From Centipeda felix (GTDB lineage Bacteria; Bacillota; Negativicutes; Selenomonadales; Selenomonadaceae), in the NCBI RefSeq assembly GCF_900186465.1, contig NZ_LT891959.1, positions 372,001-436,000 of the forward strand: a stretch of DNA of 64,000 nt, given 5' to 3'. A program made the position numbers and the translations under genes. Position 1 is the first letter of the stretch. Each line of letters starts with the position of its first letter. The notes under the pieces were generated by a model. The model saw only the letters and a list, made by a program, of their open reading frames with translations, was not told the DNA's origin and made no database searches. Positions 28,821-32,079 of this stretch are shown piece by piece.

Positions 28821-28911
28821 TGGCGGAGTGGGAGAGATTCGAACTCTCGCAGCGGTTACCCACTCTAACGATTTAGCAAACCGTCCTCTTCAGCCTCTTG
28901 AGTACCACTCC
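28821..28911 (-). tRNA. tRNA-Ser (anticodon GCU)
   Basis: 91 bases. The acceptor stem GGAGTGG pairs with CCACTCC, followed by discriminator G and an encoded CCA. The anticodon arm is ACGGT-TTGCTAA-ATCGT with anticodon GCT, reading AGC/AGU. A long variable arm and a TTCGAAT T-loop are present, as expected for serine. It has its own consensus promoter just upstream. Confidence 0.95.
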
Positions 28912-29040: not shown

Positions 29041-29688
29041 TTATGCTTTGATGTCGAGATTGCTTCCGACATGCTGTGGCGCACGCGGGCTGATTGCATA
29101 GGCCGCCTTTGCCTGCTCCATGCGCTGGCTCGTTGCCTGGGCGCCATACTGCTGTGCTTCACGAAGGGACTTCTGGAAGCGGCTCGTGCCCAGCATCGCA
29201 GGATCCATATTCTGCGCCGCCTGCTGCGTGGCGCGTGAAGTAACCTGCTCCGCCGTGCGGATAACCGTCCGCTGCGTCTGCTGGAACTCACTCGTCCCTG
29301 CCTTCGTGCCCGAACCGAACTTCGAGTCGCCTATAACCGCCTTGACCTCGTCCATCTTGGCCTGCGTCGCCTGGGCACCCATCTGCTGTGCCGAGCGGTT
29401 CGACTTCTGGAATGCACTCGTGCCCAGCATTGCAGGATCCATGTTCTGCGCAGCCTGATGTGTGGCGCGCGACGCGCTCTGCTCGCCCGTGCGGATGACG
29501 GTCCGCTGCGTTTGCTGGAACTCACTCGTCCCTGCCTTCGTGCTCGAACCGAACTTCGAGTCGCCTATAACCGCCTTAACCTCGTCCATCTTGGCCTGTG
29601 TCGCCCGACCACCAAGTTGATGGATTTCACGGTTTGACTGTTGGAAAAGACTTGAACCGAAGCCCCCTCCTATGGCTGATAGTGCCAT
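29041..29688 (-). CDS. Five-repeat helical protein beside flagellar hook genes, function unknown
   Basis: 215 residues built almost wholly of five units of 36-48 residues, each opening with G(T/S)SxFQ and containing xxRAT or xQAT. Units 1+2 and 3+4 form two copies of a 78-residue pair that are nearly identical even in DNA (234-bp offset), which points to recent tandem duplication. The sequence is rich in Gln, Ala, Thr and Ser, is probably helical, and has no signal peptide or membrane segment. The ATG follows GGAGGG. It lies downstream of flgD on the same strand, so a flagellum-linked role is possible but unproven. I do not recognise the family. Confidence 0.78.
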   Translation of the reverse strand: MALSAIGGGFGSSLFQQSNREIHQLGGRATQAKMDEVKAVIGDSKFGSSTKAGTSEFQQTQRTVIRTGEQSASRATHQAAQNMDPAMLGTSAFQKSNRSAQQMGAQATQAKMDEVKAVIGDSKFGSGTKAGTSEFQQTQRTVIRTAEQVTSRATQQAAQNMDPAMLGTSRFQKSLREAQQYGAQATSQRMEQAKAAYAISPRAPQHVGSNLDIKA

Positions 29689-29827
29689 ATTGGATCCCTC
29701 CATTTCCTCTCTGCATCCCATATTCCCTTGGGATATTACGTCCCCATTATAAGCGACGGATACGCATTATGCAACAAGAAAAGGGCGGTACGATACCGAT
29801 CTTTGGCCAACTGCCCTGTATTTCCGG

Positions 29828-30352
29828 TTACGTTGCTGAGGCTGTGACACGGCCGACGCGCACCACTTCAGAGATCTGCACCTTATGCGACTGTCCATTG
29901 ACATCGGCGATAATGCTCGGTGCACCGTCTGTGATGCTGACCCCGATGACCTTGCCTTCAAAGTTCTGCTTCGTTACAGCACCATCTTTTCCCTTCGTCT
30001 CTGTAATCCACTGGATTGGCTGTCCAATCATCGAACTGAGCTGTCCGATCAATACCGAAGAATCGATATTGTCAACAATCTTGCTGACCTTCTCCAGCCC
30101 CTTGGAGACATTCGTCATCTGCTCGAGCGCGGAGAACTGTGCCAGCTGCGAGAGATACTCCGCATTGTCCTGCGGATTAAGCGGATCCTGATAGCGCATC
30201 TGCGTTACGAGCAGCTGCAGGAACGCATCCTTGCCGAGAGCGCTGTTGTCCTTCTTTCCGGCCTTTGCCTGGTTCTGGGCCGCCTCATAGTCGGAGACCT
30301 TCTGGATGACGCCGCCGACATTGATGGTATTCAGTGGGTTTGTACTTGCCAC
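29828..30352 (-). CDS. flgD: Flagellar hook-capping protein FlgD
   Basis: Needed for hook assembly at the distal end of the rod. 174 residues. The conserved N-terminal block LGKDAFLQLLVTQMRYQDPLNP and NAEYLSQLAQFSALEQM identify it; the C-terminal part is short. GTG start at 30352 after AAGGAGG. It follows fliK by 20 bases. The next gene is not flgE, the usual follower, but the repeat protein 140 bases on. Confidence 0.92.
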   Translation of the reverse strand: MASTNPLNTINVGGVIQKVSDYEAAQNQAKAGKKDNSALGKDAFLQLLVTQMRYQDPLNPQDNAEYLSQLAQFSALEQMTNVSKGLEKVSKIVDNIDSSVLIGQLSSMIGQPIQWITETKGKDGAVTKQNFEGKVIGVSITDGAPSIIADVNGQSHKVQISEVVRVGRVTASAT

Positions 30353-30372
30353 TTTTTTTCCTCCTTACATGG

Positions 30373-32079
30373 TCAGACGCGATAGTCCACACCGTCTGCC
30401 GTTACGCCGCCAACGCTTTCCTGTATCGATGCGGGGGTAACGCCATCATCGACGATTTCCCCGTCGAGATAGTCGTCGGCATCACCGCGTGCGTAGACCT
30501 GTGTCTCACTGTGCCCTGCCTGATGCTGCTGCCATGCTTCCTGCCCTTGTCCCTGGGGCATCTGCCCATCGGCAAGTCCCGTATAGACGCCGACGCGATC
30601 CACCTTGATCCCCTGCGTGTTCAGCTCCTGCCGCAGCTGGACGAGCGAGTTCTCGATCACGCTGCGCACGTGGGCGTTGTCGCTGTGGAAGGACGCCTGT
30701 ACCGCACCGTCCGAGCCGACGGCAACACGCAGTGTCAGCTCGCCGAGATGCTCCGGCTTCAGGCGAATGATCATCTGCGTGTCGTTCAGGGTACGCAGAA
30801 GCCGTGCCTGCTCGACAATCTGACGCGGAATCTCGTAGTCGGTCTGCGGGCGCTGCGGCACTTCTGCGGCGGGTGCTGCCTGCTCCGTCTGGACGGGAGG
30901 CGTCCCCGTCTGCACAGAGGCCAGCTGAACGGGCGTCTCCGCCGTGCGCACTGTCGTCTCAAAGGAGACGTTCTCATGCGTCGGTGCTGGCTGGGGGATG
31001 CCGCTCTGCATCGGCTGCTGGTTCTGCTCCGCGTTTTCTCCGCTCATGTCACGCTGCATTGCATCGTGGCGCATCGTACGCTGTGCGAGAACATCGAGCG
31101 GGCTCGGTGCAGGCTGCGTTTCCTCGGTAAGATGCTCACCGACCAGCGCCGCCGCACTCTTCTCCCGCGGCAGAGTCTGTTGCTCCTGCATCGCGGAAAC
31201 GGCCGCTGCCTGTACCGCGGGCTGCTGCACAACCGTCGGCTGCTCCGCAGGTGCTGCGGGAACGGGGTCCTCCTGCACGACGAGCTGCGATACAGGGGTC
31301 TCATCCGTCACCGCGGCCGGTACCGTCGCTGCATCCTCCGCAGACGGCAATGCTGCTGCCTGAAGTGCCGCACGCAGCTGTGCGGGCATCGCCGCATCGA
31401 GCGCTGCGAGACGCGCCGCCGCAGCGGCAGGTGCATCCGTCTGTGCCAGCATGACAGCGGTATTCGCCGTCTCCTGCGTCAGCGGTTCACCGGCTAGGGC
31501 GCGGAGAAGCGCGTTTCCCTTCTCATCGGTCTGCGGCATCTGCTGCAGCAGATGCTCGACCGCCGTCTGCAGCTTCGTATCACGCAGCTGCTCAGCGGTC
31601 AGCCCATAGCGTTCGAGAATATCCGCCAGAGCCGGCGGCAACTCCCCCTCCGCCGGGGTGCTCTCCACGGGAACCTGCTCCACATCTGCCGGCAGGAGTG
31701 CTGTGAGCACGGTTGCCGCCACTGCGGAGGCTATGGCTGTGTCCTCGGCGGACACGTCCTTCAAGGCGTCGCTTTGCCCTTTTGCCGCAGGCATGGACGC
31801 TGTTTTTTTCACATCCTGTGCGTTCTGCGCCATCCCGTCCGTCCCCGTCGCCGCAGGCTTATCCTGTACGGCAGACAGCGAGGAATCACCGGTCTGGATC
31901 TTGGTCGCATCTGCACTCATACCCTTTTTCTGCAGTGCGCCCATCGTATCGCTGAACGTATTCTTCCCTGAGGTTGTCTGCGTACGACTGCCCGCCGCTG
32001 CGCTGCGCGCTCCCTGCACGCCCGCTGCCGTCGATGCGCCGTCCGTGGTCGATACCGCCATAAGATTTCCGGCATTCAT
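30373..32079 (-). CDS. fliK: Flagellar hook-length control protein FliK
   Basis: 568 residues. A long Ala/Gln/Pro/Thr-rich N-terminal ruler region of low complexity is followed by the conserved C-terminal Flg_hook domain at about residues 425-510. There RLKPEHLGELTLRVAVG and VIENSLVQLRQELNTQGI are the switch-domain signatures that signal FlhB to change substrate. The start follows GAAGAGG. It lies 48 bases behind radA on the same strand. Confidence 0.9.
   Translation of the reverse strand: MNAGNLMAVSTTDGASTAAGVQGARSAAAGSRTQTTSGKNTFSDTMGALQKKGMSADATKIQTGDSSLSAVQDKPAATGTDGMAQNAQDVKKTASMPAAKGQSDALKDVSAEDTAIASAVAATVLTALLPADVEQVPVESTPAEGELPPALADILERYGLTAEQLRDTKLQTAVEHLLQQMPQTDEKGNALLRALAGEPLTQETANTAVMLAQTDAPAAAAARLAALDAAMPAQLRAALQAAALPSAEDAATVPAAVTDETPVSQLVVQEDPVPAAPAEQPTVVQQPAVQAAAVSAMQEQQTLPREKSAAALVGEHLTEETQPAPSPLDVLAQRTMRHDAMQRDMSGENAEQNQQPMQSGIPQPAPTHENVSFETTVRTAETPVQLASVQTGTPPVQTEQAAPAAEVPQRPQTDYEIPRQIVEQARLLRTLNDTQMIIRLKPEHLGELTLRVAVGSDGAVQASFHSDNAHVRSVIENSLVQLRQELNTQGIKVDRVGVYTGLADGQMPQGQGQEAWQQHQAGHSETQVYARGDADDYLDGEIVDDGVTPASIQESVGGVTADGVDYRV

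Follow-up and report, generated by a model that had tools for sequence, protein, structure and literature searches.

A lineage-specific repeat protein of Selenomonadaceae with a predicted CsrA-type mRNA leader

Introduction

CsrA acts at GGA sequences displayed in hairpin loops, and on both hag and flaA a second site lies over the Shine-Dalgarno sequence (PMC7652899, PMC4894983). For CsrA/RsmE, the account in PMC7652899 gives a loop of the form ANGGAN and the SELEX consensus RUACARGGAUGU, again with a second site over the Shine-Dalgarno sequence. In C. jejuni flaA, two ANGGA stem-loops are described, the second of them on the ribosome-binding site, and the same source describes the width of the CsrA regulon outside the Gammaproteobacteria as unclear (PMC4894983).

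Here, we analyzed a gene for a repeat protein (referred to below as the repeat gene) in a 64,000-nt stretch of Centipeda felix DNA (contig NZ_LT891959.1, positions 372,001 to 436,000), which we call the window. Like the leaders of B. subtilis hag and C. jejuni flaA, repeat-gene leaders combine a GGA in the loop of an upstream hairpin with a second GGA at the Shine-Dalgarno sequence, and the loops are of the ANGGA form. In contrast to those systems, the coding region is unrelated, CsrA binding is predicted from sequence, and the GGA spacing is ∼29 nt in the window versus 21 nt for flaA (PMC4894983). The protein itself is comparable to helical tandem-repeat proteins, each unit being made up of a predicted amphipathic helix and a conserved linker, and the unit number evolving by in-frame duplication. 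It differs from them in that its 42- and 36-residue units with the sequence SNFG(N/T)ETKLGSSxFQ match no entry of Pfam, NCBIfam, PHROG, or PDB over threshold.

Results

The repeat gene follows flgD and appears to have its own promoter

The locus comprised the following features (window coordinates, strand, description).

28821..28911, (-), tRNA-Ser(GCU), downstream context
29041..29688, (-), repeat gene (215 aa), with GGAGGGA ahead of its ATG
29533..29658, (-), unit 1, 42 aa, residues 11-52
29425..29532, (-), unit 2, 36 aa, residues 53-88
29299..29424, (-), unit 3, 42 aa, residues 89-130
29191..29298, (-), unit 4, 36 aa, residues 131-166
29044..29190, (-), unit 5 plus the C-terminal tail, which terminates with the family motif (L/V)DI-x-A
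29131..29364, (-), 234-nt direct-repeat copy
29365..29598, (-), 234-nt direct-repeat copy
29691..29702, (-), predicted leader hairpin 2, UGGA-GGGA-UCCA, Shine-Dalgarno GGA in loop
29714..29735, (-), predicted leader hairpin 1, UAUCCCA-AGGGAAUA-UGGGAUG, GGA in loop
29746..29751, (-), -10 box TATAAT, found at the equivalent position in congeners
29769..29774, (-), -35-like TTGCAT, 17 nt from the -10 box
29786..29798, (-), terminator-like hairpin following flgD, weak here and stronger in congeners
29828..30352, (-), flgD, context (Pfam FlgD, 1.7e-24)
30373..32079, (-), fliK, context (Pfam Flg_hook, 1e-14)

The Pfam matches bore out the first-pass annotation of this DNA in placing fliK and flgD upstream of the repeat gene on the same strand. 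Its view that the repeat gene takes the place of flgE did not hold: all six matches in the genome to Flg_bbr_C, a domain of FlgE/FlgG-type proteins, were on contig C16, and none was on the window's contig, C17. The fliK and flgD genes themselves (window positions 29828-32079, C17) lie apart from the Flg_bbr_C, FHIPEP, flagellin, and CsrA matches, all of which are on C16.

Judged from the DNA alone, a terminator-like hairpin and a -10 box separate flgD from the repeat gene, and congeners have a strong GC hairpin, followed by a T-rich tail, between flgD and the repeat-gene promoter. The repeat gene appears to have its own sigma-A-type promoter after a flgD terminator. The promoter scan did not return the window's promoter because its -35 element has only 3/6 matches. 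Sigma-28 promoters have the consensus TAAA-N11-16-GCCGATAA. Among the 36 upstream regions that were scanned, none contained a site of this type with fewer than three mismatches; a TATAAT-type -10 box was present instead, and membership in the sigma-28 regulon was not supported.

A modular, cysteine-free protein with units of alternating length

The ATG of the repeat gene fits the M-[A/G/S]-I-S N terminus of its relatives, which, together with a VDI-x-A C terminus, is common to most rows of a 29-row alignment (A2). Five units, each starting with G(T/S)SxFQ, had been recognized in the 215-aa open reading frame, and the anchor phenylalanines at residues 15, 57, 93, 135, and 171 agree with this. 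The spacing had been called regular; the units do recur, but at distances that alternate between 42 and 36 residues (42/36/42/36). In the 32 family proteins on which protein properties were computed, anchor spacings were 42 (62 times), 36 (15 times), 45 (5 times, always as the first spacing), and eleven others. The 54 distinct 42-residue units, drawn from 25 of these proteins, yielded the consensus GSSxFQQxNxxIxxxGxxxTSxxMxxAKSYYxVSNFGNETKL, with G1, S34, and G37 invariant and high conservation of F5 and T40 (98% each), F36 (96%), S3 and Q6 (94% each), and G16 (92%).

Hydrophobicity in the 42-residue units peaked at 100 degrees, as in an alpha-helix (permutation p 0.0025). The conserved linker between the predicted helices reads SNFGNETKLGSS-x-FQ in 42-residue units and is 6 residues shorter in 36-residue units. 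An AlphaFold model placed one helix in each unit (residues 11-43, 51-81, 90-121, 129-159, and 169-198) with low confidence; run on a 2-sequence alignment, it had a mean pLDDT of 40 and a pTM of 0.21, too poor for a fold search. Each unit probably consists of one ∼30-residue amphipathic helix and a conserved linker.

Cysteine was absent from 32/32 proteins, A+Q+S+T+G made up 42-56% of the composition, GRAVY ranged from -0.48 to -0.84, and the pI was at least 8.7 in 28/32. The exceptions were two acidic 122-aa forms of genus g10 (pI 4.1) and the near-neutral proteins of L023 and L037. The short g10 form (L048, L071) ends in SSYxYFNQ and lacks the VDIxA tail. In summary, the repeat protein is modular, lineage-specific, Cys-free, hydrophilic, and mostly basic.

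Searches of Pfam, NCBIfam, and PHROG returned no match at curated score or convincing E-value, and a PDB search gave no accepted match (best E 0.57), so that the initial failure to recognize a known domain was upheld at the thresholds of all four libraries. The best weak matches, Mfp-3 (2.2e-4) and AcetDehyd-dimer (2.3e-4, below its curated score), are mutually unlike, and a known-domain identity was dropped since all matches were weak. The alpha/beta SASP family (PF00269) did not pass its cut-off, reaching a best E of 0.012 in 4/8 members at a permissive limit only. The repeat protein resembles flagellin and FlgL in being Cys-free, rich in Ala, Gln, Ser, and Thr, predicted to be helical, and without a signal peptide by eye. 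It differs from them in lying outside flagellar clusters beyond the genus and in having no profile match; the hhalign probability was 0.2%, and membership in this axial family was not supported. A literature search by title or abstract start gave no match to the repeat protein within those fields.

The five-unit layout is shared with S. flueggei

Five units were found in two of the nine gene-bearing congeners (the window's genome and G003, whose protein is identical to the S. flueggei protein, L002) and three units in the other seven, counted on one genome per species; other genera had longer or shorter arrays. The expectation that unit number varies was supported. The array had also been ascribed to a recent 234-bp duplication leaving units 1+2 and 3+4 nearly identical in DNA. 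The 234-nt copies are 85% identical in their own register (89% matches in TRF), and units 1+2 and 3+4 are 82% identical in theirs; identity of 92-96% is restricted to nt 52-156, where the S. flueggei copies are 65-77% alike. In the first ∼52 nt, the repeats of the two species group by position: the window's units 1+2 matched flueggei units 1+2 at 0.77 and 0.73, and units 3+4 matched 3+4 at 0.81 and 0.85, compared to 0.65 and 0.50 between the window's own 1+2 and 3+4. Since the repeat edges group by position across two species, the duplication would predate their split, and the common five-unit layout speaks against a recent event. The pattern, read by comparison of one species pair without a formal test, is as gene conversion in the window's lineage would give after a unit-pair duplication before the split.

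Leaders of the family carry GGA hairpins on differing stems

In the window, GGGA is present in the loops of both hairpins, and hairpin 2 covers the Shine-Dalgarno sequence; it lies outside our strict list (ANGGA, loop of 6-8 nt, stem of at least 4). Both hairpins are part of the minimum-energy fold, whose energy is ordinary. The z values of the leaders folded were -0.45 (window), -2.20, -3.06, -1.01, -1.09, and -0.18, none of them exceptional, and the minimum-energy fold of L034 does not contain its GGA hairpin. In congeners, pairing of hairpin 1 is kept through two-sided changes, with U-A or C-G as the outermost pair, a second pair changed from A-U to G-C (G001), and a third from U-A to C-G (G004); the outermost pair is lost in G004 and G001. 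These changes were counted by eye, since alignment A4 (MAFFT) puts a gap in the wrong position in G004.

Hairpins were counted in 35 leaders, obtained from the 36 upstream regions by dropping two near-copies (L042, L055) and adding L023. Left out were L040, L041, L046, L051-L054, L056, L057, L060, L061, L073, and L075-L084, loci whose genome was already represented or which were near-copies, had cut starts, or were unexamined. GGA-loop hairpins with stems of at least 5 numbered 35, versus 7.5 expected and a maximum of 15 in 300 shuffle rounds, in leaders that are related and hence not independent counts. With stems of at least 4, GGA lay in a hairpin loop in 33/35 leaders, compared to 36% of 222 control genes whose starts were picked mechanically. 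The narrower form, ANGGA in a 6-8 nt loop on a stem of at least 5, was present in 17/35 leaders versus 6/117 controls with an intergenic leader (p 1.5e-8); among all control genes, this form occurred in 8/222. The stems differed between genera and the loop was kept (AUCCCA/UGGGAU, CCGGCAA/UUGCCGG, CGCA/UGCG, UAAUUAAA/UUUAAUUA, CUUUCU/AGAGAG).

By eye, a GGA hairpin with a stem of at least 5 was present in 11/14 genera and was not seen in the leaders sampled from g18, g20, and g27. One leader each in g18 (L064) and g27 (L070) shows ACAAGGATG instead, in line with the CsrA SELEX consensus. The GGA hairpin of g22, located at -76 near the promoter, may be a chance occurrence, and in g21 the hairpin is predicted inside a longer pairing of the 5' leader part with the start region. 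The second GGA, at the Shine-Dalgarno sequence, occurs in other genera as sequence but not always as a hairpin. Rfam searches of the window yielded only the tRNA and one sub-threshold plastid match on its opposite strand, and thus no known RNA element for the leader. An ANGGA hairpin was also seen in the 80 nt before the start of a gene upstream of the repeat gene in L063 (5918-7021, mannose-6-phosphate isomerase by Pfam).

Such hairpins could alternatively govern ribosome access or mRNA stability, their GGA being merely Shine-Dalgarno-like sequence rather than a CsrA site. GGA is common near any start, and other purine triplets (AGG, GGG, AAG) are likewise enriched in the same loops. However, in many leaders the upstream hairpin begins 36-63 nt 5' of the start codon and is clear of the Shine-Dalgarno sequence; the ANGGA loop recurs on unrelated stems, and controls with leaders of their own were rarely positive, as counted above. 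We therefore regard this alternative as quite unlikely.

In its predicted elements, the repeat-gene leader has the anatomy of CsrA-repressed flagellin leaders. CsrA was found in 167/189 genomes of the bacterial family, and in the window's genome (G000) csrA (C16:517996-518154) lies in the flagellin cluster beside an apparent fliW; only CsrA and flagellin were named from family searches, the other cluster names, including fliW, being read from open reading frames. Most genomes of genus g21 have two CsrA genes (noted at L074), and the rest of the family usually has one. Of four flagellin leaders read, two (L085, L086) have an ANGGAN hexaloop; flagellin-leader sites include GCGGGC-AUGGAU-GUCCGC in the window's genome and CGGGC-AGGGAU-GCCCG in G139. 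A third leader (L091) has GGA in a loop without the ANGGAN form, and the fourth (L088) shows ACAAGGATG in a 4-bp stem by eye, unreported by the program. From the leader layout and the position of csrA in the flagellin cluster with an apparent fliW, we infer repression by CsrA and release by FliW, and we consider CsrA control of the repeat gene fairly probable.

The repeat gene occurs almost only in flagellated genomes, many of which lack it

Within the genus, flgD was present in 14/14 genomes and the repeat gene in 9/14. In the other five, nothing similar was found within 1.5 kb after flgD, and the family profile had no match elsewhere. In one of the genomes without the repeat gene (L015, G009), flgD is followed by a 157-aa open reading frame whose product, judged by eye, resembles an IS200/IS605 transposase. 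An 8-row congeneric profile (A1) detected the family in 96/189 genomes and 18/30 genera of the bacterial family, and the 29-row profile (A2) in 100/189 genomes and 19/30 genera. Over 380 genomes of the class, A2 returned the same 100 genomes and 0/191 outside the bacterial family; among 398 genomes sampled evenly across the phylum, five were positive, all of them in this same family. No relatives were found in viral contigs, phages, or plasmids, and a phage or mobile origin was rejected on these searches. G187, G186, G121, G122, and G126 each have at least two repeat-protein genes, located on separate contigs.

FlgD was present in 155/189 genomes, and its co-occurrence with the repeat gene was weak (both, 84; repeat gene only, 12; FlgD only, 71; neither, 22; p 0.058), as tabulated for the 96 A1-positive genomes without the four added by A2. 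Only two of the 12 repeat-only genomes were at least 98% complete: G174, which has FHIPEP and flagellins, and G161 (99% complete), which has flagellins and neither FlgD nor FHIPEP. G037-G041, five near-complete genomes in which FlgD and CsrA are both missing, also lacked the repeat gene; homologues in non-motile species, named at the outset as a finding that would speak against a flagellar connection, were thus not encountered there. Genomes with the family are thus almost all flagellated, yet flagellated genomes can do without it, 71/155 FlgD-bearing ones having no copy.

Adjacency to flgD was limited to the genus. Outside it, the repeat gene lay ∼453 kb (G140), 328 kb (G177), 319 kb (G143), or 115 kb (G164) from flgD, or on a different contig. 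Homologues mostly away from flagellar genes had likewise been named as contrary evidence; this is what we found outside the genus but not within it. Neighbors there varied and included hybrid cluster protein, POR, mannose-6-phosphate isomerase, chemoreceptors, and two-component genes. A gene of 544 to 569 aa adjoined the repeat gene in 5/20 distant loci fetched; the single copy tested encodes a prismane/hybrid cluster protein. This gene follows the repeat gene in genera g21 and g2 (L057, L058, L060, L066, L068), and some of these loci also have a two-component pair close by.

The first-pass annotation had suggested a rod, a filament-binding, or a ruler-like protein. Such a structural component of the flagellum, encoded as part of the fliK-flgD operon, would agree with the co-directional position next to flgD in all nine congeners that have the gene, with the variable unit number, and with the lack of cysteine, exported flagellar proteins being generally Cys-free. 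It is nevertheless very unlikely, given the promoter-like and terminator-like signals after flgD, the distance from flgD in other genera, the five flgD-bearing congeners without the gene, and the lack of flagellin or FlgL homology. What survives, in a different form, is a flagellar link as a shared predicted CsrA-type leader, and not as an operon.

The same data bear on two further explanations. The product could be CsrA controlled yet non-flagellar, acting in stationary phase or under stress as a hydrophilic, helical protectant or scaffold in bacteria that are flagellated incidentally. The composition, GRAVY, and lack of cysteine, the varied neighbors with one recurrent cluster, and the 71 FlgD genomes without the gene would suit it, but the 42/36 spacing and the 92-100% conservation of key linker positions exceed what a bulk protectant needs, and the gene is missing from 5/5 of the near-complete genomes without FlgD and CsrA. 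We rate this explanation as unlikely, though worth keeping in mind. Amphipathic helical repeats in variable number would also be compatible with a cytoskeletal or cell shape scaffold, with stacked units serving as a filament or spacer inside mostly curved cells. Selenomonas cells are uniformly curved, whereas the gene is patchy in the genus (9/14), and such a role seems highly improbable.

Discussion

We tentatively favor, at somewhat less than even confidence, the reading that the repeat protein is a dispensable, helical, multivalent accessory of the flagellated state, CsrA controlled alongside flagellin. That its role is related to flagella at all is conceivable, with the balance of our judgment slightly against it. 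According to the favored reading, the mRNA would be made from the gene's own sigma-A-type promoter. A CsrA dimer would then bridge the upstream GGA hairpin and the Shine-Dalgarno GGA and block translation, as on flagellin mRNA, until FliW takes CsrA off the mRNA and the repeat protein is made in step with flagellin export. Control of this kind would couple the protein to flagellation with no need for a shared operon.

The regular helices predicted and the residue-exact conservation of the linker suggest several copies of one binding surface. Two to six such copies would face a repetitive or multivalent partner, such as the filament, a chaperone, or another cell structure, and unit number might set the valency or reach of the protein. 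A more far-reaching proposal, speculative and rather unlikely in our estimation, is that the CsrA-FliW-flagellin circuit of Selenomonadaceae has a second, lineage-specific arm: the repeat mRNA would compete with flagellin mRNA for CsrA, and the repeats would attach to a flagellar partner of repetitive structure, thereby adjusting flagellin homeostasis or coating the filament, while valency would evolve through unit-pair duplication.

The new point is a widely kept, predicted CsrA-type leader on a repeat protein absent from the curated libraries searched, a family that has its own consensus and occurs in roughly every second genome of a single bacterial family. This leader makes the function of an otherwise anonymous protein testable. 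If the prediction is true, CsrA of this diderm Firmicute lineage would control more than flagellin, which would bear on the width of its regulon.
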